From Pseudomonas putida (GTDB lineage: Bacteria; Pseudomonadota; Gammaproteobacteria; Pseudomonadales; Pseudomonadaceae), in assembly GCF_005080685.1 (NCBI RefSeq), contig NZ_CP039371.1:2728001-2792000 (forward strand): 64,000 nt of DNA. The letters run 5' to 3'. A program made the position numbers and the translations under genes. Positions 608 to 54,261 of this stretch are shown one piece after another. Each line of letters opens with the position of its first letter. Within the stretch, counting starts at the first letter, position 1. The notes beneath the pieces were generated by a model. The model worked only from the letters and a program-made list of their open reading frames with translations. It ran no database searches and had not been told where the DNA came from.

Positions 608-1852
608 TCACCAGAACTTCCAGGTATAGGAAGTGATCAGGCGATATTCGTTGTAGTCGTTGCCGTACTTCTGCTGGGTACGCATGTTCTTCAGGTCGAA
701 CGACAGGTCTTTTAGCGGGCCGCTTTGCACCACGTAGCTGAGCATGATGTCACGTTCGCTTTCCTGGTCGCGCGAAAGGCCTGCGCCGCGGTCGATGTCG
801 GTGCCTTTGATGTAGCGGGTGAACAGCTTCAGCCCCGGCAGGCCCATGGCGGCGAAGTTGTAGCCATAGCGTACCGACCAGCTGCGCTCGTCCGGGCGTA
901 TGAAGGGCAACCCGGCCCAGTTCGGCAGCCACAGTTGCGGCACGTAGCCGTTGAGCGTCGGGAACACGGTGTCGCCGGTCATGCGCTGGTAGCTGGCGCC
1001 GATCATGTGGCCGCTCTTTTCCAAGGTGACCAGGCCGAAGTAGGCGCGATTGTCCACCGCGCCACTGCGCGCGGCGCCGTCCTCGCGGTTGTTGAAATAG
1101 CCGACGTCGGTCTTGAGCTGGTAGCCGTCGGCGAACCGCAGGGTATGCTTGATGCCGCCGTAGTCCTGCTTGTAGATATCGTTGAGCACGCCGTGGAAGT
1201 AGCTGCCTTGCAGGTCCGGGGTCAACGCATAGGTGGCGCCGACGAAGTCCAGGCCATCGCTGTCCTGGCTGTCCGTGGTGCCGTAGCGGTACAGGCGTTC
1301 ATGATTGGACGACTCGCGGGTGACGATCGACCAGAAGCGTCCACCTACCAGGGTCAGGTTGTCGATATCGCGCGACTCGAATACCGCGCCTTGGTAGATG
1401 GTGTCGAGCTGGCGGCTGGGGTCGTTGGACGCCACGGGGTAGAACGGCTTCTGGTCACCGATCTTGACCACGGTCTTGGCGTATTTCAGCTTCAGCGTGG
1501 CACCGCCCCGGCTGTAGTCGTCGGCGGCCTGCTGGCGATGGCGGCTGAACGGCAGCGAACCATCGTTGCCGGTGGAGTCCAGGCGCAAGGCATACTGGCC
1601 ATTGATGTCGAGGCCGACGGCCAGGGGCGTGTCGGTATAACCGGACTCGAACTGCAGGTCGAAGCCCTGCGACCAGTTGCCGACCTTGGAGGTCGGGGCG
1701 CTGGAGTTGGTGAAGTTGCGGTTCAGGTAGAGGTTTCTGAAATTGAGCGAGAGGTGGCTGTCATCCACCACCTCGGCCAGGCTGGTCAGGGGTATTACGG
1801 TGCCTAGGCACAGGCACAACGATTTCGCACGCAACGGCCATTTGGGTTCCAT
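608..1852 (-). CDS. OprD-family outer membrane porin
   Basis: A 414-aa protein with an N-terminal signal sequence (about residues 1-26, ending near SLAEVVDD). It has an OprD-like start of the mature chain (LSLNFRNLYLNRNF), many alternating amphipathic strands and a C-terminal aromatic residue (TSYTWKFW), as expected of an outer membrane beta-barrel. OprD porins take up basic amino acids or small aromatic acids. It lies between the dioxygenase reductase copy and an MFS importer on the same strand, so a matched outer/inner membrane uptake pair is likely. The substrate cannot be read from sequence. Length is normal for the family. Confidence 0.88.
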   Translation of the reverse strand: MEPKWPLRAKSLCLCLGTVIPLTSLAEVVDDSHLSLNFRNLYLNRNFTNSSAPTSKVGNWSQGFDLQFESGYTDTPLAVGLDINGQYALRLDSTGNDGSLPFSRHRQQAADDYSRGGATLKLKYAKTVVKIGDQKPFYPVASNDPSRQLDTIYQGAVFESRDIDNLTLVGGRFWSIVTRESSNHERLYRYGTTDSQDSDGLDFVGATYALTPDLQGSYFHGVLNDIYKQDYGGIKHTLRFADGYQLKTDVGYFNNREDGAARSGAVDNRAYFGLVTLEKSGHMIGASYQRMTGDTVFPTLNGYVPQLWLPNWAGLPFIRPDERSWSVRYGYNFAAMGLPGLKLFTRYIKGTDIDRGAGLSRDQESERDIMLSYVVQSGPLKDLSFDLKNMRTQQKYGNDYNEYRLITSYTWKFW

Positions 1853-1962
1853 GGGGTAATCCTGGAAGTGTGATCAGTACGAGGTCCGGGCAGTCGAAAA
1901 ACTGGGCAGGGGAGGTCTGCAGGTCTGGGCCCGCTTGTCTGTCACGTATTGTTTTTGTTGTT

Positions 1963-2922
1963 TTAGATATCCAGCACCAGGCGCTTTCCACGCGCCCGGG
2001 AACAGCACAGTACGATCTGTTCGTTGCTCTGTTTCTCCTCATCGGTCAGGTATTGGTCACGGTGATCGGGTTGGCCTTCGAGCACATCGCACAGGCAGGT
2101 GCCGCACACACCTTGCTCGCACGACACCTCGACCTTGATGCCGACCTCGCGCAGCGCGGCGATCAGCGTCTGGCCCTGTTGCACCTGCACGGTCTTGCCG
2201 CTGCGTGCGGCGACCACCTCGAAACTGTCGCCCGAGGTGTCGACCTCGGCCTGGAAGTATTCGTGGTGGATGTGCCGGTCGTCGTAGCCTTGCTGGCGGG
2301 CACTTTCGATCACCCAGTCCATGAAGCCCGTGGGGCCGCAGGTATACAGGTGCACGCCCGGAGTACCTGGGCCCAGCACACGGGCGAGGTCCAGTTGCTG
2401 GTCGCAGCCTTCGTCACTGAAATGGGTGAACACGCTGGCGGCGAAGGGCGCTGCCAGCAGTTCGTCGACGAAGGCGCAGCGGCTGCGCGAGCGGGCCCGG
2501 TAATGCAGCTCGAAGGGCTCGCCCTTGGCGTGCAGGGCGTGGGCCATGGCGATCATCGGGGTGATGCCGATGCCGCCGCCGAGCAGGATCGAGCGTTTGG
2601 CATCGCTCACCAGCGCAAACAGGTTACGTGGCGCGCTGATGCGCATCGGCGTGCCGGGTTGCAGGTGTTCATGCACCGCCAGCGAGCCGCCGCGCGATTG
2701 TTGGTCCTTGAGTACGCCCAGGCGGTAGACATTGCTGCGCGCCGGGTCGCCGCACAGCGAGTACTGGCGCACCAGGTCAGGGCCCAGGTGCAGGTCGACG
2801 TGGGCACCTGCTGCAAAGCGCGGCAGTGCCTGGCCGTCGACCGCCGCCAGTTCGAGGACGACGACATCGCCGCCTTGTACCTCGCGGGCCTGGACGAATA
2901 CGTCGAGCAATTGGTCGCTCAT
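1963..2922 (-). CDS. Second copy of iacF-like dioxygenase reductase (FNR/2Fe-2S)
   Basis: A 319-aa electron-transfer reductase of the phthalate dioxygenase reductase/vanillate demethylase type. The FMN/FAD-binding part contains RQYSLCGDP, the NAD(P)H-binding part GGGIGITPMIAM, and the C-terminus a plant-type ferredoxin domain with CEQGVCGTC and a distal CC pair. It should pass electrons to the adjacent Rieske oxygenase. The start is taken at the second of two adjacent ATGs (2922), giving MSDQLL and the same length as iacF at 10791. The two proteins match at roughly two thirds of positions by eye, so this pair is clearly older than the near-identical oxygenase pair. The gene follows the beta subunit with a gap of about 10 bp. 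Confidence 0.9.
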   Translation of the reverse strand: MSDQLLDVFVQAREVQGGDVVVLELAAVDGQALPRFAAGAHVDLHLGPDLVRQYSLCGDPARSNVYRLGVLKDQQSRGGSLAVHEHLQPGTPMRISAPRNLFALVSDAKRSILLGGGIGITPMIAMAHALHAKGEPFELHYRARSRSRCAFVDELLAAPFAASVFTHFSDEGCDQQLDLARVLGPGTPGVHLYTCGPTGFMDWVIESARQQGYDDRHIHHEYFQAEVDTSGDSFEVVAARSGKTVQVQQGQTLIAALREVGIKVEVSCEQGVCGTCLCDVLEGQPDHRDQYLTDEEKQSNEQIVLCCSRARGKRLVLDI

Positions 2923-2932
2923 CATCGTGGCC

Positions 2933-3412
2933 CTAGAGGATATAGCCGATGCCGGCGAGGGCATCGTCGCTGTTGATCAGGCTGATCACCTTGCGGTGGA
3001 TCTTGAAACCGCCCTCGGCGCGCACCAGGGTGTAGACCAGGTCGGCGCTGTAGTGCTTGAGGCTTTCCTTGCGGAACTCGCGGATGTTCTGCGCGGCGCG
3101 CACGGTGACGTTGACGCCGTCGTCGCCGATCACGCGGATGCGCGAAAGGGTGCGCACGGTGCGCGGCTGCGGGCTGGTCGAGATCGACTCGCCACCGATC
3201 AGCCGCTGCACGCGCAGGCCGCGCATGTGGTGGTCGTCGTAGGCGTAGTTCAGGGTGTTCTCGTAGTCGCTTTCCTTCGGGTCGATCGGGATGATGTACG
3301 TCCCCTTCTCGGTCCACAGGTCGAGCCAGCCGTCGTACTCGCCATGGTCGAGCATGTCGCCTTCCTGCCAGATGAACGCGGTGACTTCATTGAACAGATT
3401 CAGGTCCATCAT
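2933..3412 (-). CDS. Second copy of iacD: Rieske dioxygenase small (beta) subunit
   Basis: A 159-aa ring-hydroxylating dioxygenase beta subunit (NTF2-like fold; structural, no metal). Its first ATG overlaps the stop of the alpha gene in an ATGATGA junction, the same arrangement as in iacC/iacD at 9513. Against IacD there are 15 substitutions in 159 residues by hand count (about 91% identity), mostly in the first 95 residues. The alpha subunits encoded next to them differ at only two residues, so beta marks the diverged side of a homogenised tract. It is translationally coupled to alpha. Confidence 0.92.
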   Translation of the reverse strand: MMDLNLFNEVTAFIWQEGDMLDHGEYDGWLDLWTEKGTYIIPIDPKESDYENTLNYAYDDHHMRGLRVQRLIGGESISTSPQPRTVRTLSRIRVIGDDGVNVTVRAAQNIREFRKESLKHYSADLVYTLVRAEGGFKIHRKVISLINSDDALAGIGYIL

Positions 3413-4692
3413 TTGGCCTCCGCGGTCATCATCTTCTTCCACTGCTGGTACGCCGCGCGCATGCCGGTCTCGGCGCTGACGTCGGAGATCAAGCCGTCTG
3501 CGCTGGGCTTCTCGCCAGGCAGGCCACGGTTGAGCATGATCCACAGGTTCTCGCCGGCATTGGCGCCTTTCTGCACCCGCTCCCAGGCCTCGGAATCGTC
3601 CGGGGTGCCGAAGCCCATCGGGCCCTGGAAGTGTTCGTGCAGGCGCAGGCGGTAGCGGTTGGCCGCAGCCGGGCCGCCGTCCATGGTGATCACCGAGTGG
3701 TGGATTTCCGTTTCCGTGACCGAGATCGGCTGCAAGACGCGGAAGAACGCCATCGAGCAGGCGACGTTGGGGAACAGGTTGAGGTTGAAGCCCGAGCCAC
3801 CGACGGCGCGCACGATGCGCCGCACCTGTTGCTCCTCGATGCCCTCGTCACGCAGTTCGGCGGCAAGGCTTTCGAAACGCTCGGGGATCGGCTTGTCGAG
3901 GTCGGCTTCAAGGTCCACCAGCTCGGGGATCATCACCATCACGCTGTGGCCGTTGCCCAGGTCCTCGACGTAGCCGGGGCCCTTGACGAAGTCGAACAGC
4001 TCCAGGGTCTGCTCGTCGACCGAGGACAGGAAGCTCTTGTGCACCAGCGGGAAGTGGTAGGCGTCGGTGGTGTTTTCCAGCTGGATCTTCCAGTTGCCGG
4101 GGAAGCGGAAGCGGTGCTCGCCGGGGACCTTGATGCCGTAGCCGGCGCCCTGTTTCATGAACAGGTCCATCCACTTCCTGGCGGCGCCGAGGAAGTCTTG
4201 CAGCGGCTCGATATCGTCCTTGAAGGTGGCGAAGATCATGCCGGCGTAGCTTTCGGTGCGCAGGCTGACCAGCGGCAGCTCGGCCTTGTCGATGCAGTCG
4301 CCGTAGCTTTCCGGGTGCGGGATGCCGCGCAGCGAGCCGTCCAGGGCGTAGCCCCAGCCGTGGTAGGGGCAGACGAAGCTGTTGGTCTTGCCCTTCTTGT
4401 GCTCGCAGACCGTGGCGCCACGGTGGCGGCAGCGGTTGAGCAGGACGTTGATGCCCTTTTTGCGATCACGTACCACGATCACTGGCTGCTTGCCGATGTA
4501 GGTGGTCTTGTAGCTGCCGGCGTCGGGGATTTCGCTTTCGTGGGCGACCCAGATCCAGGTGCTGTGGAAGATCTTTTCCAGCTCGGCGTCGAACAGCGCC
4601 GGGTCGGTGTACAGGGAGGTGTGGACGCGGTCGGCCTGCACCAGCTCGGCCGGGTCGACCGCCAGGTTGACGGCGGGAATCAGGTTGCTCAC
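3409..4692 (-). CDS. Second copy of iacC: Rieske dioxygenase large (alpha) subunit
   Basis: A 427-aa oxygenase subunit. The Rieske [2Fe-2S] ligands are C88, H90, C108 and H111 (CRH...CPYHGW), and the mononuclear iron region follows at about 207-218 with D210, H213 and H218. It starts with GTG, as does iacC, behind the conserved ribosome site GCAGAGG. It differs from iacC (8233-9516) at two residues near the C-terminus. By hand count there are 19 nucleotide differences in 1284, only two of them in the first 852. It forms the left arm of an inverted repeat. It probably acts on the same oxidised indole intermediate as IacC but lies in a separate leftward transcript. Confidence 0.93.
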   Translation of the reverse strand: MSNLIPAVNLAVDPAELVQADRVHTSLYTDPALFDAELEKIFHSTWIWVAHESEIPDAGSYKTTYIGKQPVIVVRDRKKGINVLLNRCRHRGATVCEHKKGKTNSFVCPYHGWGYALDGSLRGIPHPESYGDCIDKAELPLVSLRTESYAGMIFATFKDDIEPLQDFLGAARKWMDLFMKQGAGYGIKVPGEHRFRFPGNWKIQLENTTDAYHFPLVHKSFLSSVDEQTLELFDFVKGPGYVEDLGNGHSVMVMIPELVDLEADLDKPIPERFESLAAELRDEGIEEQQVRRIVRAVGGSGFNLNLFPNVACSMAFFRVLQPISVTETEIHHSVITMDGGPAAANRYRLRLHEHFQGPMGFGTPDDSEAWERVQKGANAGENLWIMLNRGLPGEKPSADGLISDVSAETGMRAAYQQWKKMMTAEAK

Positions 4693-4830
4693 GGGATTAC
4701 CTCTGCAAGGCGTTTTCTTATGTGAGCAACGCTAAAGGGCAGGGGGGAGGGGCTCAATGACAGGCGGGAACAATGTCGTTGCGTTTTGTGCAACGAGTGT
4801 TCAGCTGCGGTGCCAGGCACAAGGACTGTG
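4693..4830. promoter_or_regulatory. Upstream region of the second iacC copy
   Basis: This short gene-free stretch lies between the GTG of the left alpha gene and the first REP repeat. It should hold the ribosome site (GCAGAGG in the gene's direction, just before GTG) and possibly the promoter of the leftward iacC2-iacD2-iacF2-oprD-MFS transcript. I found neither the 17-bp putative IacR box seen upstream of iacA and iacH, nor a convincing sigma-54 element. Homology with the upstream side of iacC ends at the ribosome site. Confidence 0.4.
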
Positions 4831-5160
4831 GTGTCTGCTTCGCGGGCAAGCCCGCTCCTACAGGGGGATGTGCCGGACCTGGGCGTAGCGGTGATCCTGT
4901 GGGAGCGGGCTTGCCCGCGAACACCGGCGAAGCCGGTGCCATACACCGAGGTGTCTGCTTCGCGGGCAAGCCCGCTCCTACAGGGGATGTGCCGGACCTG
5001 GGCGTAGCGGTGATCCTGTGGGAGCGGGCTTGCCCGCGAACACCGGCGAAGCCGGTGCCATACACCGAGGTGTCTGCTTTGCGGGCAAGCCCGCTCCTAC
5101 AGGGGATGTGCCGGACCTGGGCGTAGCGGTGATCCTGTGGGAGCGGGCTTGCCCGCGAAT
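4831..5160. repeat. Tandem REP-doublet array, nearly three copies of a ~120-bp unit
   Basis: Units begin at 4831, 4951 and 5070 (periods 120 and 119) and are nearly identical. The third is cut off at about 5160. Each holds two Pseudomonas REP palindromes facing each other (GCGGGCAAGCCCGCTCCTAC and its complement), plus a small hairpin ACCGGCGAAGCCGGT. Open frames across it (products such as MYGTGFAGVRGQARSH) are translations of the repeat, not genes. It separates lysR from the second iacC copy on the same strand and could end or attenuate read-through. Confidence 0.92.
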
Positions 5161-5210
5161 GCGTAGGTCAATTCACCGCAGCATTCGCGGGCGAAGCCGC
5201 TGCGGCGGTA

Positions 5211-6134
5211 TCAGGCATTGGCCGCCATGCGCACCGCCTTGGCCATTTCCGTTGCCAGTTCGCGGCTCAGGCCATCCAGGGTGCGCCCGCGTCGCGTGAC
5301 GATCTGGATGTCGGTGGCGTTCATCGCCTCGCAATCGATCGCCAGCGCCTTGAAGGTGCCGCTCTTGATCTCGTCGATGATCGGCAACTCGGCCAGCAAC
5401 GTGGCACCAAGCCCCGACCGCACGTAGTCGAGAATCACCGCAAGCGAATTGGAGGTGAGGGTCGGCACGATGTCGAACGGCAAATCCTTGCACGCCGCAT
5501 CGGCCAATTCGCGCACGCGGAAGTTGGCACCCGGCAACACCAGCGATTCACGCGCCACTTCCGCGAGGCTGACGGTGGAGCGCTGGGCCATGCGGCTGTC
5601 ACGGTGCACGATCATGCGCAGTGGCTGGGCCAGGCTGAACAGGCGGGTTAGGCGCGCCGTCGCGCTGGGGGCGAACACCACGCCAAGATGAGCCTCGTCG
5701 GCCAACACCATACGTTGTACCTCCAGCGACGGCGCGCTGATGATCTCGGCCTTGTGCGCGCCATGGGCATGCAGGAAGCCCTGCAGCGAATTGATCGCCC
5801 GCGCGCCGAGCAGACCTTCGCCGATGGCGATGACCGTCGATGCCTGCTGGCGCTGACGCAGTTCGTCGAGGCGGTCGATCAATGCACAGTGCTGGCGCAA
5901 GCGTTCGATGTAGTAGTCCACCGCCGCCTCGCCAGCAGCCGTGAGACTGATGCGGTGAGTGCCGGGACGAACCAGCTCGATGTCCAGCTCCTGTTCCAGC
6001 CGGGCAATCTGCCGGCTGACCGATGAAGTGGCGACGCCCAGGGCCTCTGCGGCGGCGCGCATCGAACCCTTGTCATGGCTCAGGTGCAGGTAGCGCAGGC
6101 GGTGGTCCTGCATGTCGATGTGGCGGGTGGGCAT
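5211..6134 (-). CDS. LysR-family transcriptional regulator
   Basis: A 307-aa LysR regulator. Its N-terminal winged helix-turn-helix reads SMRAAAEALGVATSSVSRQIARLEQELD (about residues 25-52), followed by a co-inducer-binding domain. A GAGGTC-type ribosome site precedes the ATG at 6134. It is divergent from iacA, with 531 bp between them, and points toward the second dioxygenase set. It could control that set, iacA, or both. The cluster also has its own MarR regulator (iacR), so the region has two regulators, and the effector of this one is unknown. Confidence 0.9.
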   Translation of the reverse strand: MPTRHIDMQDHRLRYLHLSHDKGSMRAAAEALGVATSSVSRQIARLEQELDIELVRPGTHRISLTAAGEAAVDYYIERLRQHCALIDRLDELRQRQQASTVIAIGEGLLGARAINSLQGFLHAHGAHKAEIISAPSLEVQRMVLADEAHLGVVFAPSATARLTRLFSLAQPLRMIVHRDSRMAQRSTVSLAEVARESLVLPGANFRVRELADAACKDLPFDIVPTLTSNSLAVILDYVRSGLGATLLAELPIIDEIKSGTFKALAIDCEAMNATDIQIVTRRGRTLDGLSRELATEMAKAVRMAANA

Positions 6135-6665
6135 GACCTCGACCTCGGGGTAATCACGGCAGGCATTGGCGTGGTCCCCGCCATCCTGGTGGGGCGCTGG
6201 CTGGCTTGTTGTTATCGGCCCTGCGCGGTTGTCGGGCCTTGTCGCATTCCATGCCTCGCCATCCTACACCAGGTTTTTTTGCTTCGAAATCATGTGAAAA
6301 GTGCGCTAAAAATTTTTTCGCATATTGGCGTGCGTGGTTAGTTTTTTTGGCCCTGTGTCGCGTGGCGGACCACAGTATAAAAACATAACTAAATCAAGAT
6401 GATACGAGTTTCTATGCGGAATTTATGGTGAGTGTCTCAGAGTAAAATCTGGATTTTAAGCGTGAAAAGTCAATTGACAATTCACGTAATTGGTCGCAAA
6501 TTTTGCTCACCGGCACACAAAACAAGAGAGACAGACCATGCCGCCCAGACTCGCCTTTGCCTTCCCGCGTGGCCACTGTTCGCCCCTGGTGAGCCCAGCC
6601 ATTTCGCGTCCTGCCCTTCAGCTCCTGCATCACTACAAGAACCGCGCCTGAGACGGAGAATGTCC
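6135..6665. promoter_or_regulatory. Divergent lysR-iacA intergenic region
   Basis: 531 bp without a convincing gene. The middle (about 6270-6500) is clearly AT-rich compared with its surroundings, with runs such as AAAAATTTTTTCG near 6310, as expected of a regulatory region with bent DNA or promoters. It contains the putative IacR box at 6474-6490 and the palindrome GTCAATTGAC at 6469-6478. The frame of iacA is open upstream to 6432. The ribosome site GGAG at 6655-6658 sits 7 bp before ATG 6666, which favours that ATG over the one at 6660 and over longer versions. Confidence 0.6.
6474..6490 (+). promoter_or_regulatory. Putative IacR operator / promoter box upstream of iacA
   Basis: TTGACAATTCACGTAAT occurs here and, with one mismatch, at 12868-12884 between iacR and iacH, the other intergenic promoter region of the cluster. 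The similarity extends a few bases on each side (TCARTTGACAWTTCACGTAATNG). TTGACA could also be a -35 hexamer, so a repressor bound here would block polymerase. MarR-type binding is inferred from the shared position and motif. Confidence 0.55.
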
Positions 6666-7835
6666 ATGGATTCGCTTTGCCTGCGTGCCGCGCCAGCGTC
6701 GGCGCTCGCCTCCGGCCCTGCCTTCGAGGCCTTGCTTGACGGTGTTCGTGATCGTGCCCGCTTGGGCGAGTTCGATCGCCAGCGCCACATTTCCCGCGAC
6801 GTGATCGATGCTTTCAAGGCCCACGGCGTCTATCGCGCCCTGGTGCCAAAACGCTTCGGTGGACTGGAGTGTTCGCCTGCTGCGTTCTGCGAAATGATCG
6901 AACGCATTTCCCACGCCGACGGTTCGGCCGGTTGGGTGGCCAGCTTCGGCATGAGCCCGGTGTACCTGGCGGCGTTGCCGCTGGAGACCATCGCCGAGAT
7001 CTACGGCAACAGCCCCGACACCGTGTTCGCTGGCGGCATCTTCCCGCCCCAAGCAGCCGAGATCGTCAGCGGTGGCTTCAAGATCAACGGGCGCTGGAAA
7101 TACTCCAGCGGCTCGATGGGCGCCGACATCGTCGGCGTCGGTATCGCCCCGCGCAATGGCGACAAGCTCGACCTGCCACGCCTGGCGGTACTGCCACGCA
7201 GTCAGGCGCGCATCGAGGAAACCTGGGACACCGTCGGCCTGCTCGGCACCGGCAGCCACGACCTGGTGGTCGAGGATGTGGTAGTGGGCGAGCAGTGGAC
7301 CTTCGTGCGCGGCGGCAAGCCGAACCTGGACGAGCCGTTCTTCCGCTATCCCTCGCTGTCGTTCGCGACCCAGGTGCTCTCGGTGGTTGGCTTGGGTATT
7401 GCCCGCGCCGCCCTGGACGAGTTGTCCGGCATGGCCAGCGGGCGTATCTCGGTGACTGGCGCTCCGGCCCTGGCTGACCGGCCATTGGCCCAGGTGGATG
7501 TGGCCAAGGCCGAGGCTGCGCTGCGTTCGGCCCGTGCCTTCTTCTACGAATCCATCGAGCGGGCCTGGGAGCACGTGTTGGCGGGCGACCCGGTACCGGT
7601 CGACGTCACCAACCTGCTGCGCCTGTCCTCGACCCATGCCGCCCGCGTCGCCGCCGAAGTGGCGCGGAGCGCGCAAATGCTCTCGGGCATGACCGGTATC
7701 TACAACGAAAGCCCGCTGGCCCGTTGCGTCAACGACGCGCAGGTGGTCACCCAGCACGCCTTCATGGGCGACGTCACCTATCAGAACGCCGGGGCGATGT
7801 TCTTCGGTAAACAGCCTCTTCCGGGCTACCTCTAA
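6666..7835 (+). CDS. iacA: IacA: acyl-CoA dehydrogenase-like flavin-dependent monooxygenase
   Basis: A 389-aa group D flavoprotein monooxygenase related to HsaA and the oxygenase component of 4-hydroxyphenylacetate hydroxylase. It has an acyl-CoA dehydrogenase fold: FDRQRHISRDVIDAFKAHGV near the N-terminus, ISHADGSAGWVASF, the middle beta-domain KINGRWKYSSG, and the C-terminal helical part ending KQPLPGYL. It uses reduced flavin supplied by a reductase (IacG in this cluster is the candidate). In iac pathways IacA starts IAA breakdown by oxidising the indole ring. It is first in iacABCDEFG, with iacB 18 bp downstream. The start at 6666 is chosen by ribosome-site spacing. Confidence 0.92.
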   Translation: MDSLCLRAAPASALASGPAFEALLDGVRDRARLGEFDRQRHISRDVIDAFKAHGVYRALVPKRFGGLECSPAAFCEMIERISHADGSAGWVASFGMSPVYLAALPLETIAEIYGNSPDTVFAGGIFPPQAAEIVSGGFKINGRWKYSSGSMGADIVGVGIAPRNGDKLDLPRLAVLPRSQARIEETWDTVGLLGTGSHDLVVEDVVVGEQWTFVRGGKPNLDEPFFRYPSLSFATQVLSVVGLGIARAALDELSGMASGRISVTGAPALADRPLAQVDVAKAEAALRSARAFFYESIERAWEHVLAGDPVPVDVTNLLRLSSTHAARVAAEVARSAQMLSGMTGIYNESPLARCVNDAQVVTQHAFMGDVTYQNAGAMFFGKQPLPGYL

Positions 7836-7853
7836 TTTTCAGGGATCTTTGTC

Positions 7854-8216
7854 ATGAGCGATAAGAAAGCCTTGCGCGTGCTGTTCTGCATGGGCATCAA
7901 CCAGAACTTCTTCGATGCCCCGCGTGAGGAACAGCTGCAGGTGTGGGCCGCCTTCAGCGCCATGTGGAACGGCATCCACGACCTGGCCGGGGTCAGTGTG
8001 CTGGGCAACATGGACGACGACCAGAGCATGGTCGGCCCCTCCGACGGCTTCCCGTGGACCACCTACCTGCTGGCCGACGTGCCGGATATCGAGACTGTGC
8101 ACGCCGCCTGCAACCTGTTCCGCACCACCGCCGTGGGCGAGGGGCCGTACAAGTTGTGGCGCTACGCCAAGGTCGAGGCCCGTGTCGGCCGCGAACTGAT
8201 CATCCAGCGCGCCTGA
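7854..8216 (+). CDS. iacB: IacB: small conserved protein of the iac cluster
   Basis: A 120-aa soluble protein with no signal or membrane segment (MSDKKALRVLFCMGINQNFF...). Position and size match IacB of iac clusters, whose role is poorly settled. The pattern suggests a small alpha+beta, EthD-like fold, but no catalytic motif can be named. It is placed tightly between iacA (18-bp gap) and iacC (16-bp gap), so it is co-transcribed. There is no second copy next to the left-hand dioxygenase set. Confidence 0.85.
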   Translation: MSDKKALRVLFCMGINQNFFDAPREEQLQVWAAFSAMWNGIHDLAGVSVLGNMDDDQSMVGPSDGFPWTTYLLADVPDIETVHAACNLFRTTAVGEGPYKLWRYAKVEARVGRELIIQRA

Positions 8217-8232
8217 AGCAGAGGAATATCCC

Positions 8233-9516
8233 GTGAGCAACCTGATTCCCGCCGTCAACCTGGCGGTCGACCCGGCCGAGCTGGTGCAGGCCGACCGCGT
8301 CCACACCTCCCTGTACACCGACCCGGCGCTGTTCGACGCCGAGCTGGAAAAGATCTTCCACAGCACCTGGATCTGGGTCGCCCACGAAAGCGAAATCCCC
8401 GACGCCGGCAGCTACAAAACCACCTACATCGGCAAGCAGCCAGTGATCGTGGTACGTGATCGCAAAAAGGGCATCAACGTCCTGCTCAACCGCTGCCGCC
8501 ACCGTGGCGCCACGGTCTGCGAGCACAAGAAGGGCAAGACCAACAGCTTCGTCTGCCCCTACCACGGCTGGGGCTACGCCCTGGACGGCTCGCTGCGCGG
8601 CATCCCGCACCCGGAAAGCTACGGCGACTGCATCGACAAGGCCGAGCTGCCGCTGGTCAGCCTGCGCACCGAAAGCTACGCCGGCATGATCTTCGCCACC
8701 TTCAAGGACGATATCGAGCCGCTGCAAGACTTCCTCGGCGCCGCCAGGAAGTGGATGGACCTGTTCATGAAACAGGGCGCCGGCTACGGCATCAAGGTCC
8801 CCGGCGAGCACCGCTTCCGCTTCCCCGGCAACTGGAAGATCCAGCTGGAAAACACCACCGACGCCTACCACTTCCCGCTGGTGCACAAGAGCTTCCTGTC
8901 CTCGGTCGACGAGCAGACCCTGGAGCTGTTCGACTTCGTCAAGGGCCCCGGCTACGTCGAGGACCTGGGCAACGGTCACAGCGTGATGGTGATGATCCCC
9001 GAGCTGGTGGACCTTGAAGCCGACCTCGACAAGCCGATCCCCGAGCGTTTCGAAAGCCTTGCCGCCGAACTGCGTGACGAGGGCATCGAGGAGCAGCAGG
9101 TGCGCCGTATCGTGCGCGCCGTCGGTGGCTCGGGCTTCAACCTCAACCTGTTCCCCAACGTCGCCTGCTCGATGGCGTTCTTCCGCGTCTTGCAGCCGAT
9201 CTCGGTCACGGAAACGGAAATCCACCACTCGGTGATCACCATGGACGGCGGCCCGGCTGCGGCCAACCGCTACCGCCTGCGCCTGCACGAACACTTCCAG
9301 GGCCCGATGGGCTTCGGCACGCCGGACGATTCCGAGGCCTGGGAGCGGGTGCAGAAAGGCGCAAACGCTGGCGAGAACCTGTGGATCATGCTCAACCGCG
9401 GCCTGCCGGGCGAGAAGCCCAGCGAAGATGGCCTGGTCTCCGACGTCAGTGCCGAAACCGGCATGCGGGCGGCGTACCAGCAGTGGAAGAAGATGATGAC
9501 GGCGGAGGCCAAATGA
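8233..9516 (+). CDS. iacC: IacC: Rieske dioxygenase large (alpha) subunit
   Basis: A 427-aa Rieske oxygenase alpha subunit. The [2Fe-2S] ligands are C88/H90/C108/H111, and the catalytic iron region is ENTTDAYHFPLVH at about 206-218. A GTG start follows an AGAGGA ribosome site. The stop overlaps the ATG of iacD by 4 bp. In the iac pathway IacC and IacD, with IacF as reductase, process an oxidised indole-acetate intermediate on the way to catechol. It is the right arm of the near-perfect inverted repeat with 3409-4692. Confidence 0.93.
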   Translation: MSNLIPAVNLAVDPAELVQADRVHTSLYTDPALFDAELEKIFHSTWIWVAHESEIPDAGSYKTTYIGKQPVIVVRDRKKGINVLLNRCRHRGATVCEHKKGKTNSFVCPYHGWGYALDGSLRGIPHPESYGDCIDKAELPLVSLRTESYAGMIFATFKDDIEPLQDFLGAARKWMDLFMKQGAGYGIKVPGEHRFRFPGNWKIQLENTTDAYHFPLVHKSFLSSVDEQTLELFDFVKGPGYVEDLGNGHSVMVMIPELVDLEADLDKPIPERFESLAAELRDEGIEEQQVRRIVRAVGGSGFNLNLFPNVACSMAFFRVLQPISVTETEIHHSVITMDGGPAAANRYRLRLHEHFQGPMGFGTPDDSEAWERVQKGANAGENLWIMLNRGLPGEKPSEDGLVSDVSAETGMRAAYQQWKKMMTAEAK

Positions 9517-10002: not shown

Positions 10003-10743
10003 ATGAACCAAGTCGCATTGGTAACCGGCGCCGGACAGGGGCTGGGGCAACGTTTCTGCTCGCGGCTGCTGGCCGCAGGCTTCGACGTGGTGGTCTCGGA
10101 CCGTGACCTGAACCTGGCCCAGGCCGCTGCCGAGCAGCTGCAAGGGCAGGGTGGCCGGGTGTTGGCGGTCAAGCTCGACGTCGGCAACAAGGCTGATTTC
10201 GAGGGCGCCCTGGCCCAGACGCTGGAGCACTTCGGTGCGCTGCACGTGGTGGTCAACAACGCAGCGGTAACCAAGACCACGCCGCTGATGCAGATCAGCC
10301 CGGAAGAGTTCGACGCCGTGGTCGGCCTCAACCTGCGCAGCGTGTTCCTCGGCTGCCAGGTGCTGGGTGCGCACCTGGCCGAGGCCGGCTACGGGCGGAT
10401 CATCAACATGGCCTCGCTGGCCGGGCAGAACGGCGGCACCGCCACCGGCGCGCACTATGCGGCGAGCAAGGGCGCCATCGTCACCCTGACCAAGATTTTC
10501 GCCAAGGAGTTCGCCGCACGTGGGGTCACGGTCAACGCCATTGCCCCAGGGCCGATCGACTCGCCGGCCGTGCATGCTGCCGTGCCAGCCGAGCGGCTTG
10601 AGGGGCTACTGGCGAACATCCCGGTGCAGCGCCTGGGCGATGCCGATTTCCTCGGCGACCTGATCGTGCAACTGGCACGGCCCGACGCGTACTTCACCAC
10701 CGGGGCGACCTGGGACGTGAACGGCGGCCTGTTCATGCGTTGA
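10003..10743 (+). CDS. iacE: IacE: short-chain dehydrogenase/reductase
   Basis: A 246-aa classical SDR. The cofactor loop is TGAGQGLGQ near the N-terminus, followed by an NNAA motif (VVNNAAVTK) and the catalytic YxxxK as HYAASKGA. GAGGA precedes ATG 10003; the frame stays open upstream but overlaps iacD, so the short start is preferred. IacE is reported to work early in IAA oxidation together with IacA. It has no counterpart in the left-hand operon. A GC-rich hairpin separates it from iacF. Confidence 0.92.
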   Translation: MNQVALVTGAGQGLGQRFCSRLLAAGFDVVVSDRDLNLAQAAAEQLQGQGGRVLAVKLDVGNKADFEGALAQTLEHFGALHVVVNNAAVTKTTPLMQISPEEFDAVVGLNLRSVFLGCQVLGAHLAEAGYGRIINMASLAGQNGGTATGAHYAASKGAIVTLTKIFAKEFAARGVTVNAIAPGPIDSPAVHAAVPAERLEGLLANIPVQRLGDADFLGDLIVQLARPDAYFTTGATWDVNGGLFMR

Positions 10744-10790: not shown

Positions 10791-11750
10791 ATGAATGAAG
10801 AATTGTTGAACGTCATCGTGCGTAAGCGCGAGATCCAAGGGGCCGACGTGGTCGTCCTCGACCTGGGGCGGGCCGATGGCGCCGCTCTGCCTGCCTTCGA
10901 GGCTGGCGCGCACGTCGATATCCATGTGGCACCCGGCCTGGTGCGCCAGTATTCGCTGTGCAGCGACCCCGCCGAGGTGTCCGTGTACCGCTTGGGCGTG
11001 CTCAAGGACCCAGCGTCCCGAGGCGGCTCGGTACAGGTGCACGAAGCGTTGCACGAAGGCCGCGAGGTGCAGATCAGCGCGCCGCGCAACCTGTTCCCGC
11101 TGGCCAAGGACGGCAAACGCTCGATCCTGCTGGGCGGTGGTATCGGCATCACCCCGATGATCGCCATGGCCCACGCCCTGTATCGCCAGGGCGCGGACTT
11201 CGAACTGCACTACTGCGGGCGTTCACGCAGCCGCAGCGCGTTTCTCGACGAGCTGGCCAAGGCGCCGTTCGCCGCGCAAGTAGTCACCCACTTCGACGAT
11301 GAGGACGCGGCCCAGCGCCTTGACCTGCCTAGCGTGCTCGGCAAGGCCGACGCCGGCGTGCACCTGTATACCTGCGGCCCGTCGGGCTTCATGGACTGGG
11401 TCATCGCCGGGGCGCGAGCGCAGGGCTTTGAGGAGGCGCAGATCCACAAGGAGTATTTCCAGGTCGAGGTCGACGTCAGTGGCGGCAGCTTCGAAGTGGT
11501 CGCCGCGCGCAGCAACAAGACCGTGCAGGTCGCCGAAGGCCAGAGCATTCTCGATGCGCTGGCCCAGGTCGGCATCAAGATCGATATCTCCTGCGAGCAG
11601 GGCGTCTGCGGCACTTGCATGTGCGAGGTGCTCGAAGGCGAGCCGGACCACCGCGATGTGTACCTGACCGATGAAGAGAAAGCCGCCAACGACCAGATCC
11701 TGGTGTGTTGCTCGCGGGCCAAGACCAACAAGCTGGTGCTGGATATCTGA
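10791..11750 (+). CDS. iacF: IacF: dioxygenase reductase (flavin, NAD(P)H, 2Fe-2S)
   Basis: A 319-aa reductase. It has a flavin-binding RQYSLCSDP motif, a nucleotide-binding GGGIGITPMIAM motif, and a C-terminal ferredoxin domain with CEQGVCGTC and a later CC. It should reduce the IacC/IacD oxygenase. A GAGG site precedes ATG 10791. iacG follows after 10 bp. It shares about two thirds of its residues with the copy at 1963-2922. Confidence 0.92.
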   Translation: MNEELLNVIVRKREIQGADVVVLDLGRADGAALPAFEAGAHVDIHVAPGLVRQYSLCSDPAEVSVYRLGVLKDPASRGGSVQVHEALHEGREVQISAPRNLFPLAKDGKRSILLGGGIGITPMIAMAHALYRQGADFELHYCGRSRSRSAFLDELAKAPFAAQVVTHFDDEDAAQRLDLPSVLGKADAGVHLYTCGPSGFMDWVIAGARAQGFEEAQIHKEYFQVEVDVSGGSFEVVAARSNKTVQVAEGQSILDALAQVGIKIDISCEQGVCGTCMCEVLEGEPDHRDVYLTDEEKAANDQILVCCSRAKTNKLVLDI

Positions 11751-52009: not shown

Positions 52010-53259
52010 TCCGCCGGCGCCTGTTCTGGAAGCTGTTCCTGGCCTTCTGGCTGGCCAACTGCCTGACCTTCCTGGTGGGCGCCGGCGCGTTCATGCTAGA
52101 CGAGTTGCGCGGCGACACCCCAGCGCTGCGCTCGCTGCTGTCCACCGAACTGAACATGTTGCAGCGCTATGGCGAACAGGCCGGGCGGCAGTTGCTCGAC
52201 GTCTCGCCGCAAGCGCCGGATGTGCAGGTCGGCTTGTACGACGAACAGGGCCGGTTGCTGGCCGGGCGCGCCGTTGCGCACGCGCGTTTCGAGCACAAGG
52301 TATTCGACGCCCAGGGTCGACCACTGCTGCTGCGGGCATCGGCCGCCACCAGCCTTGACCAGGGACCTCGTCCACGCGGCATGGGCCCCCTGGTCACCGG
52401 TACGCTGATGAGCGCCCTGTTCGCCTTGCTCTGCAGCTTCTACCTGACCCGTCCGCTGGCTTGGCTGCGCGCAGCGATGGCCCAGGTCGCCCAAGGCCGC
52501 TTCGACGTGCGGGTGCGACCGCGCCTGGGCCGGCGCCGGGACGAAATCGTCGACCTGGCCGAGGACTGCGACCGCATGGCCGGCCAACTGAAGGCGCTGG
52601 TGCAGGCGCAACAGAACCTGCTGCATGACATTTCCCACGAGCTGCGCTCGCCGCTGACGCGCCTGCACGCTGCCATCGGGCTATTGCGCCAGCAACCGGA
52701 GCGACACGAGATGCTCGAGCGCATCGAGCGCGAGTCGCGGCGCATGGATGACCTGATCGAGCAACTGCTGACCCTGGCGCGGGTCCAGGCAGAGCAGGGC
52801 GAGGGCGCGTGCTCGGCGCTGGATGTGGTCGAGCTGTTGGCGCAGATCGTCGAGGATGCCCGCTTCGAGGCGGGTATCAAGCAGTGTCAGGTGGTACTCG
52901 CCGCACAGGGGCCATTCCTCACCGAGGGCCATGAAGAACTGTTGTATCGGGCGTTCGAGAACGTCATCCGCAACGCCGTGCGCTATACCGCGCCGGGCAC
53001 GCAGGTACGGGTGGAGGCGACGCTGTTGGCCGATGAGCGCTTGCAGGTGTGCATCAGCGATTGCGGGCCGGGCGTGGATCCGGCGCGATTGAAGGCCATT
53101 TTCGAGCCCTTCGACCGGGGGCACGACACCGGTGGCGATGGTTTCGGCCTGGGCCTGGCCATCGCCCAGCGGGCCGTTGCCCTGCACCAGGGCACGATCA
53201 CTGCACAGCCAGGCGCCGAGGGTGGCTTGCAGGTGCGTATCGAGCTGCCAAGGCTCTAG
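52006..53259 (+). CDS. Sensor histidine kinase, CpxA-like
   Basis: A 417-aa kinase. TM1 is LFLAFWLANCLTFLVGAGAF, the periplasmic part is short (about 30-127), and TM2 is LVTGTLMSALFALLCSFYL. A HAMP region, the phospho-His box LLHDISHELRSPLTRLHAAI and an ATPase domain (AFENVIRNAVRYT, GDGFGLGLAIAQRAVALHQG) follow. It overlaps the regulator by 4 bp. Its last 19 codons are copied in each of the following tandem repeats (QPGAEGGLQVRIELPRL). Confidence 0.92.
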   Translation: MIRRRLFWKLFLAFWLANCLTFLVGAGAFMLDELRGDTPALRSLLSTELNMLQRYGEQAGRQLLDVSPQAPDVQVGLYDEQGRLLAGRAVAHARFEHKVFDAQGRPLLLRASAATSLDQGPRPRGMGPLVTGTLMSALFALLCSFYLTRPLAWLRAAMAQVAQGRFDVRVRPRLGRRRDEIVDLAEDCDRMAGQLKALVQAQQNLLHDISHELRSPLTRLHAAIGLLRQQPERHEMLERIERESRRMDDLIEQLLTLARVQAEQGEGACSALDVVELLAQIVEDARFEAGIKQCQVVLAAQGPFLTEGHEELLYRAFENVIRNAVRYTAPGTQVRVEATLLADERLQVCISDCGPGVDPARLKAIFEPFDRGHDTGGDGFGLGLAIAQRAVALHQGTITAQPGAEGGLQVRIELPRL

Positions 53260-54260
53260 CCGAATGCGCCCCGGTCGATGTGGGAGCGGCCTTGTGTCGC
53301 GAAAGGGCCGCAAAGCGGCCCCAGTATTTCGGCAGCGCCGCGAAGATCCTGGGGCTGCTGCGCAGCCCTTTCGCGACACAAGGCCGCTCCCACATCGAGC
53401 GTGGGGTGTTTTGGCGCTTGCCGCGCTTTCAAGTATCCTGCGCGCCCTTCGACTGAAAACCTCCCCTGCCCAGCCAGGCGCCGAGGGTGGCTTGCACGTG
53501 CGTATCGAGCTGCCACGGCTCTAGCCGAATGCGCCCCGGTCGATGTGGGAGCGGCCTTGCGTCGCGAAAGGGCCGCAAAGCGGCCCCAGTATTTGGGCAG
53601 CGCCGCGAAGATCCTGGGGCTGCTGCGCAGCCCTTTCGCGACACAAGGCCGCTCCCACATCGGGCGTGGGGTGTTTTGGAGCTTGCCGGGCTTTCAAGTA
53701 TCCTGCGCGCCCTTCGACTGAAAACCTCCCCTGCACAGCCAGGCGCCGAGGGTGGCTTGCAGGTGCGTATCGAGCTGCCAAGGCTCTAGCCGAATGCGCC
53801 CCGGTCGATGTGGGAGCGGCCTTGCGTCGCGAAAGGGCCGCAAAGCGGCCCCGGTGTTTCGGCAGCGCCGCGAAGATCCTGGGGCTGCTGCGCAGCCCTT
53901 TCGCGACACAAGGCCGCTCCCACATCGAGCGTGGGGTATTTTGGAGCTTGCCGCGCTTTCAAGTATCCTGCGCGCCCTTCGACTGAAAACCTCCCCTGCC
54001 CAGCCAGGCGCCGAGGGTGGCTTGCACGTGCGTATCGAGCTGCCACGGCTCTAGCCGAATGCGCCCCGGTCGATGTGGGAGCGGCCTTGCGTCGCGAAAG
54101 GGCCGCAAAGCGGCCCCAGTATTTCGGCAGCGCCGCGAAGATCCTGGGGCTGCTGCGCAGCCCTTTCGCGACACAAGGCCGCTCCCACATCGAGCGTGGG
54201 GTGTTTTGGCGCTTGCCGCGCTTTCAAGTATCCTGCGCGCCTTTCGACTGAAAACCTCCC
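53201..54260. repeat. Four tandem 265-bp repeats carrying kinase tail, REPIN and downstream promoter
   Basis: Units begin at 53201, 53466, 53731 and 53996, each exactly 265 bp; the last ends at 54260, two bases before the next gene's ATG. Each unit contains the final codons of the kinase gene (out of use in copies 2-4), a REPIN with perfect 31-bp arms (copy 1: 53277-53307 and 53366-53396), and a promoter-like TTGGCG/TTGGAG-N17-TATCCT (copy 1: 53411-53439; copy 4: 54206-54234) with AAAACCTCCC at the end. Small differences between copies form a mosaic. Repeated open frames (134, 147 and 100 aa) are artefacts of the REPIN. Confidence 0.95.
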
Positions 54261-54261
54261 C

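Follow-up and report, generated by a model that had tools for sequence, protein, structure and literature searches.

How can two neighbouring operons carry almost the same oxygenase alpha subunit together with strongly diverged reductases? This question is raised by a stretch of 64,000 nucleotides (nt) from Pseudomonas putida (contig NZ_CP039371.1, positions 2,728,001 to 2,792,000), hereafter called the window, whose genome is very probably that of P. putida 1290, a model auxin degrader. Operon R (iacABCDEFG, plus strand, from 6660) and operon L (minus strand, 608-4692) flank a LysR-type gene at 5211-6134, and the gene order iacABCDEFG-R-HI, with Rieske alpha, beta and reductase genes, is that of the iac cluster (PMC6624763). 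The two alpha genes lie 3.5 kb apart and the alpha-beta blocks form inverted repeats of 1.77 kb. We propose, with a probability of roughly 0.87, that an old operon duplication was followed by recurrent gene conversion of alpha and beta between the inverted operons, the reductases diverging freely. Concerted evolution is repeated in several lineages, as seen in the tree pattern and in a step of divergence; RecA-dependent conversion is the presumed process. The genes concerned are as follows.

3409..4692, minus strand: iacC-type Rieske alpha subunit, L copy (iacC2); Rieske and Ring_hydroxyl_A domains; homogenised part about 3563-4692
8233..9516, plus strand: iacC alpha subunit, R copy; homogenised part about 8233-9362
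2933..3412, minus strand: iacD-type beta subunit, L copy (iacD2); Ring_hydroxyl_B PF00866
9513..9992, plus strand: iacD beta subunit, R copy; leaning towards G307, the L copy towards S31/G322
1963..2922, minus strand: F_L, iacF-type reductase of operon L; Fer2 domain
10791..11750, plus strand: F_R, iacF reductase of operon R, assigned by the reductase tree

Divergence between the two copies in P. putida 1290

Both alpha genes are 1284 nt long and differ at 19 bases, 2 in the first 852 (positions 186 and 744) and 17 in the last 432 (positions 864, 873, 876, 1089, 1131, 1134, 1137, 1167, 1176, 1193, 1197, 1201, 1204, 1218, 1224, 1236 and 1269), which change only residues 398 (A/E) and 402 (I/V) of the protein. 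The beta subunits differ at 15 of 159 residues (49 of 480 nt) and F_L and F_R at 101 of 319, that is, about one third. The preliminary description of this DNA had given the same alpha coordinates and the same counts, all of which were reproduced, and had the upstream homology stop at the ribosome site; indeed, it ends 14-15 nt before the GTG start. Downstream, homology covers all of beta, breaks off where operon R carries iacE, and is found again in the reductase, with 75% nt identity. The next best alpha match elsewhere in the genome reaches 38% identity.

The clustering of the alpha differences is not random (hypergeometric P = 6e-7, or 3e-7 on variable columns only), and run tests gave P = 0.001 for the longest run and 0.0003 for the sum of squares. 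The sharp step inside alpha, already recognised earlier, is thus real, but its position has to be moved: a likelihood scan of alpha and beta places the best single change point not at base 852 but at nt 1130 (2-lnL interval 1077-1130; window 9362 in R and 3563 in L), with 6 differences in the 1130 nt before it and 62 in the 631 nt after it (permutation P 0.0002 on alpha alone). Uniform synonymous divergence, which would argue against conversion, was looked for and not seen, the synonymous distance (dS) between L and R being 0.010 for alpha 1-852, 0.169 for the 3' part of alpha, 0.309 for beta and 0.771 for the reductase. At the two 5' difference sites, the L base is carried by 28 and 27 of 29 other copies, respectively, which suggests that R mutated later at both.

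Near-identical repeats invite assembly errors, and in P. cremoricolorata both beta genes are truncated by a contig end. However, 19 bases still tell the 1290 copies apart, the sequence of this strain is described as obtained by PacBio with a mean subread of 3.7 kb, longer than the 1.77-kb repeat (PMC6624763), and the same pattern is found in other assemblies, including the single-contig genomes G307, G322 and G003. It is therefore very improbable that assembly or polishing made the copies alike, and collapse of the two genes, raised as a concern in the preliminary description, is not the cause.

Genomes carrying both operons

A survey of 398 genomes of the genus, with an iacC relative defined by E <= 1e-150 and at most four candidates scored per genome, found such a relative in 80 genomes and two such matches in at least eight. 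F_L orthologues at 79% identity or more were present in 5 of 388 genomes; a separate search for F_L relatives in 194 genomes found orthologues at this level only in G000 and G003, while G045 gave a match of 70%. The genome collection contributed two more genomes, S31 (L038) and P. capeferrum WCS358 (L045). Both operons, in inverted orientation, occur in seven genomes, namely 1290, S31, G307, G322, P. capeferrum, G003 and P. cremoricolorata (L118). All seven pairs have LysR on the side of the L alpha gene and iacA-B on the side of the R alpha gene, and the order LysR-C-D-F_L-porin is common to the six genomes whose contigs extend that far. Since this linkage is identical in all seven genomes, there is no sign in them of repeat-mediated inversion by crossing over. 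The synteny comparison used matches of at least half the query length, and G131 and G073, with two iacC matches each, stand outside the pairwise measurements. P. cremoricolorata (L118/L055), whose contig ends inside both beta copies, contributes partial beta genes and enters no reductase count; its contig ends would fit betas too alike for short-read assembly.

In P. rhizoryzae (L056), operon L is present but the locus lacks operon R; iacA was matched in this genome at 48% identity at best, and a search for iacB gave no match, an empty result that carries no weight. In L041, L042, L043 and L122, LysR and the porin stand beside iac, and iacC2D2F2 is absent between a promoter-like leader and the porin leader. 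The C-D-F part of operon L can thus be absent as a unit. Since P. rhizoryzae, the deepest F_L branch of the L clade, has C-D-F, its loss in these four genomes is likelier than its never having been there.

Concerted evolution of alpha and beta

Within-genome nt divergence between the L and R copies, in %, is given in the order alpha 1-852, alpha 853-1281, beta and reductase.

1290: 0.23, 3.96, 9.85, 27.6
S31: 1.17, 3.03, 3.77, 26.4
G307: 0.59, 0.70, 1.47, 25.6
G322: 0.35, 0, 1.89, 29.9
P. capeferrum: 0.12, 0, 2.74, 27.2
G003: 3.17, 1.17, 2.10, 29.3
P. cremoricolorata: 3.76, 1.40, 0.38 (partial beta), no reductase

Comparison of the seven genomes, the six others lying 6.6-15.6% from 1290 in the gyrB region, revealed that paralogs within a genome are more alike in alpha 1-852 than orthologs between genomes, with 0.1-3.8% against 3.9-12.8% nt divergence and a dS of 0.005-0.152 against 0.161-0.530 (median 0.355). 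Orthologues in related genomes are accordingly less alike than the 1290 pair, a point that the preliminary description had singled out for checking. Beta pairs of the six genomes other than 1290 are 0.4-3.8% apart, one value coming from partial genes. The reductases behave in the opposite way, being 25.6-29.9% apart within each of six genomes and 9.9-21.1% apart as orthologues between these six.

Trees were built from 31 of 109 extracted alpha copies (all L/R pairs, the P. rhizoryzae L copy and 16 single R copies) and from 29 reductases. The reductase tree splits into two clades of 7 L and 22 R rows (100/100). In the alpha 1-852 tree, the two copies of a genome form a starred sister pair in six of the seven genomes, P. 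cremoricolorata being the exception, within a four-row clade shared with G003; the alpha 3' plus beta tree likewise pairs copies by genome in six of seven, the exception here being 1290. A single clade of the eight L rows is rejected by the approximately unbiased (AU) test, with p-AU 3.7e-5 for alpha 1-852 and 7e-76 for alpha 3' plus beta. Separate trees for the parts, as had been recommended, thus group alpha by genome and reductases by operon. A quick protein tree, built from 75 of the 92 reductases that remained once nine duplicate loci and one of two P. cremoricolorata contigs had been set aside, places F_L outside a 54-row R group of Pseudomonas and near kin (support 97); it suggests that the F_L/F_R split is old, though this tree has long branches.

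Recent duplications of iacCD, independent in each lineage and without conversion, would likewise produce copies that group by genome. However, six of the seven genomes share the synteny (the seventh contig, that of P. cremoricolorata, ends in beta), and F_L forms one old clade; fresh copies would have to land between LysR and F_L every time, which amounts to replacement, and the step inside alpha would be left unexplained. The leader is not uniform, G003 and P. cremoricolorata having about 1.7 kb of extra DNA between LysR and iacC2. We consider such independent duplications quite improbable. Strong constraint on the 5' part of alpha, with no exchange, has in its favour that the alpha protein is more conserved than beta or the reductase. 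Yet the same 852 nt differ between the seven genomes, at the distances and the median dS given above, and 324 of the 483 columns variable among 29 other copies fall within them, so that the chance of this explanation is negligible.

Recurrent conversion after an old duplication agrees further with the diverged reductases, neighbouring DNA from the same duplication, and with the six starred alpha pairs. The most alike stretch also varies, being 5' alpha in 1290, 3' alpha in G003, 3' alpha plus the partial beta in P. cremoricolorata and all of alpha in P. capeferrum, as expected of separate conversion tracts. The earlier proposal of an older duplication followed by conversion therefore holds in kind, but the homogenised stretch in 1290 is about 1.1 kb rather than two thirds of alpha, and what was taken for a single footprint is one instance of a process acting in several genomes, on alpha and beta.

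Other second iacCD sets provide a contrast. In four genomes with a non-L second set (NFACC02, P. cedrina, P. ovata and G188), the alpha copies are 17.1-20.0% apart within the genome, and one non-L type, found in L074, L075, L077 and L120, differs by 2.0-7.2% across those genomes. Given these wide gaps, the presence of a second iacCD set does not by itself entail homogenisation; as causes of the latter, inverted orientation cannot be separated from high identity in this comparison. Non-L second sets, as in L050, L074, L075, L077, L120, L060, L133 and L135, mostly lie beside an amidase-like H gene and form types with alpha 16-20% apart.

The unlike 3' end and beta in 1290

The exceptional position of 1290 in the alpha 3' plus beta tree was examined with affinity tests on 24 of the 31 rows, in groups named partly after earlier trees had been seen, and with tests of iacA-B and iacE-F-G on 18 R rows. 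In the gyrB region and in a second region, which we take to be that of parE, 1290 joins S31 (100/100). In iacE-F-G, 1290 joins S31 and G322 (100/100), its grouping with G307 and L040 being rejected (p 1e-9). The iacA-B genes show the reverse, since the grouping with S31 and G322 is rejected (p 4e-8), that with G307 and L040 is allowed (p 0.28), and the tree places 1290 in a nine-row group with P. capeferrum, G307, L040 and others (100/98). In the alpha tail plus beta, grouping of the L copy is accepted with S31/G322 (p 0.28) and rejected with G307 (p 0.049), whereas that of the R copy is accepted with G307 (p 0.485) and rejected with S31/G322 (p 0.048); a clade made up of both 1290 copies is rejected as well (p 0.042).

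The preliminary description had read the unlike 3' end and beta as a relic of the old duplication. Since the beta pairs are alike in six other genomes and the two 1290 copies lean to different lineages, this divergence is probably secondary instead, although the tests concerned are marginal. The chances are about even that an allele of another lineage entered one or the other 1290 copy and that the first 1.1 kb or so of alpha was then converted. A variant, compatible with earlier concerted evolution, holds that the pair was once alike over all of alpha and beta, the step arising solely from a foreign 3' alpha-beta piece in one copy with no later 5' conversion. The alike beta pairs elsewhere and the opposite affinities of the two tails fit it. 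It has to contend with iacA-B, lying upstream, where S31/G322 is also rejected: a single import spanning iacA-B and the tail includes 5' alpha, so that re-homogenisation would be needed, an argument that becomes weaker if the S31 iacA-B is foreign. We regard this variant as unlikely, though worth keeping in view.

Several observations weigh against recurrent conversion or against the import of a foreign allele into 1290. Conversion is seen only through comparison of genomes of different species, none conspecific with 1290. Run tests are non-significant in G322 (0.69/0.50) and weak in G307 (0.13/0.04), and the alpha 3' plus beta pairing is weak in G003 (90/50) and P. cremoricolorata (90/74). 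These two genomes are only 2.6-3.3% apart in alpha 3' and 1.8-2.3% in beta, so that beta cannot separate within from between there (G003 within, 2.1%). The P. rhizoryzae L alpha, for which no R-type partner was found, is just 10-15% from the 1290 copies, and slow alpha evolution thus plays some part. As for the foreign allele, the tail tests are marginal (p 0.042-0.049), and a clade of both 1290 tails with G307 is compatible with the data (p 0.14), as is one that also takes in L040 (p 0.26). In the gyrB and parE regions, G322 groups with L044 (100/100), a group of 1290, S31 and G322 being rejected; this conflict with the iac trees implies that iac genes of that group moved between lineages, and the S31 iacA-B may be the foreign part instead. 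As to the donor of the 5' tract (alpha 1-1128), the pair may group with S31/G322 (p 0.35) as well as with G307 (p 0.26).

Two genomes stand out in these trees. G322 (L117) joins S31 in both iacE-F-G and iacA-B and L044 in gyrB/parE; its iac cluster has probably moved between species. L039, titled Pantoea sp. Ap-967, falls among Pseudomonas in the gyrB and parE regions, beside G307 and L040, and its name is probably wrong.

A possible course of events

Collectively, these data suggest the following history. An old duplication would have produced two inverted operons, R with iacABCDEFG and L with LysR-iacC2-iacD2-iacF2-oprD. Homologous recombination between the 1.77-kb inverted repeats could copy stretches of one onto the other, alpha and beta thereby evolving in concert within each lineage, and the reductases, 26-30% apart, may be too unlike to recombine and so diverge freely. 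In 1290, the last conversion would have covered about the first 1.1 kb of alpha, and an allele of another lineage that entered one copy may account for the unlike 3' end and beta.

Organization and presumed function of the operons

The remaining genes and elements of the locus are listed below.

608..1852, minus strand: OprD-family outer-membrane porin, last gene of operon L; Pfam OprD PF03573, E 2e-121
4777..4795, minus strand: palindrome CGTTGC-N7-GCAACG in the operon L leader; sole exact match in the window; putative operator
5211..6134, minus strand: LysR-type regulator between the operons; HTH_1 and LysR_substrate
6660..7835, plus strand: iacA-type oxygenase, first gene of operon R; acyl-CoA dehydrogenase families
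7854..8216, plus strand: iacB, assigned by position and synteny; no Pfam family
10003..10743, plus strand: iacE, presumably of the short-chain dehydrogenase family, assigned by synteny; without counterpart in operon L

The LysR-iacC2 gap measures 518 nt in 1290, 123-234 nt in G322, P. capeferrum and G307, 374 nt in P. rhizoryzae and about 1.7 kb in G003 and P. cremoricolorata. In 1290 it contains, at window 4839-5159, repeat units spaced by 119 nt, with three copies of a 58-nt part that are 100% alike and with 26-nt inverted arms, which we take to be similar to repetitive extragenic palindromic (REP) sequences or bacterial interspersed mosaic elements (BIME). Elsewhere, window 53201-54261 holds a tandem array of direct repeats, each of about 265 nt and 97-98% alike, that match in inverted orientation too.

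Nine leader sequences, belonging to operon L or to the porin gene (1290, G307, G322, P. capeferrum, P. rhizoryzae, L041, L042, L043 and L122), were compared; all contain the core GTTGC-N7-GCAAC and six the longer CGTTGC-N7-GCAACG, making this palindrome a possible operator.

IacCD is thought to take dioxindole-3-acetate (DOAA) towards catechol. The near-identity of alpha and the similarity of beta suggest that operon L acts on an auxin breakdown product, supplying the same oxygenase with a reductase and a porin of its own and, probably, a different regulator; a common oxygenase sequence would keep the subunits of both operons compatible. According to PMC9613470, iacC is required in 1290 for the conversion of DOAA to catechol, and iacCDF take part in it in P. 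phytofirmans. If this requirement was shown in 1290 itself, operon L is no stand-in for R during growth on auxin.

Relation to known systems and significance

Concerted evolution of near-identical genes for aromatic catabolism is not without parallel, as catIJF and pcaIJF of Acinetobacter baylyi, lying in two operons, are reportedly kept alike by conversion; these encode different enzymes from iacCD. The partial duplication of iacCDF in P. putida 1290, the LysR gene and the OprD-like gene were named in 2019 (Laird and Leveau, PMC6624763); that paper treats the duplication alone and discusses neither copy divergence, nor conversion, nor the occurrence of the pair in further genomes. Wang and Chen 2018 (PMC6053082) listed 26 genes in recurrent prokaryotic concerted evolution, including tuf, amoABC and haoA. 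As in the cases set out in the main text and tables of that paper, paralogs sharing synteny group by species in at least five species, and whole enzyme complexes are homogenised; unlike them, the copies here lie near each other in opposite orientation, and homogenisation has spared the reductase of these operons. Its Tables 1-2 contain no iac gene, and the word 'dioxygenase' is absent from its main text. The literature searched, mostly outside subscription papers, held no report of iac gene conversion and mentioned the second copy only in PMC6624763; the excerpted part of PMC8383072 names none. The duplication is thus already known and concerted evolution is known in kind, that of these genes being unreported in the literature searched.

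The pair adds to the bacterial protein genes evolving in concert an oxygenase with a built-in control, the escaped reductase, and offers a tractable inverted pair for measuring conversion. Results from knocking out one iacC copy, or from primers and short reads directed at this gene, are ambiguous unless the other copy is considered, and a change made in one copy may be overwritten or repaired from the other. Self-repair has been proposed for the inverted repeats of plastids and sex chromosomes. By analogy, and speculatively, the inverted layout might act as a self-repairing palindrome, in which close oxygenase copies are held for mutual correction, foreign alleles are erased or spread, and two operons that differ in reductase, porin and probably regulator supply one interchangeable oxygenase. 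If this rather unlikely idea is true, one operon would serve auxin and the other perhaps plant-made oxidised auxin such as dioxindole-3-acetate.

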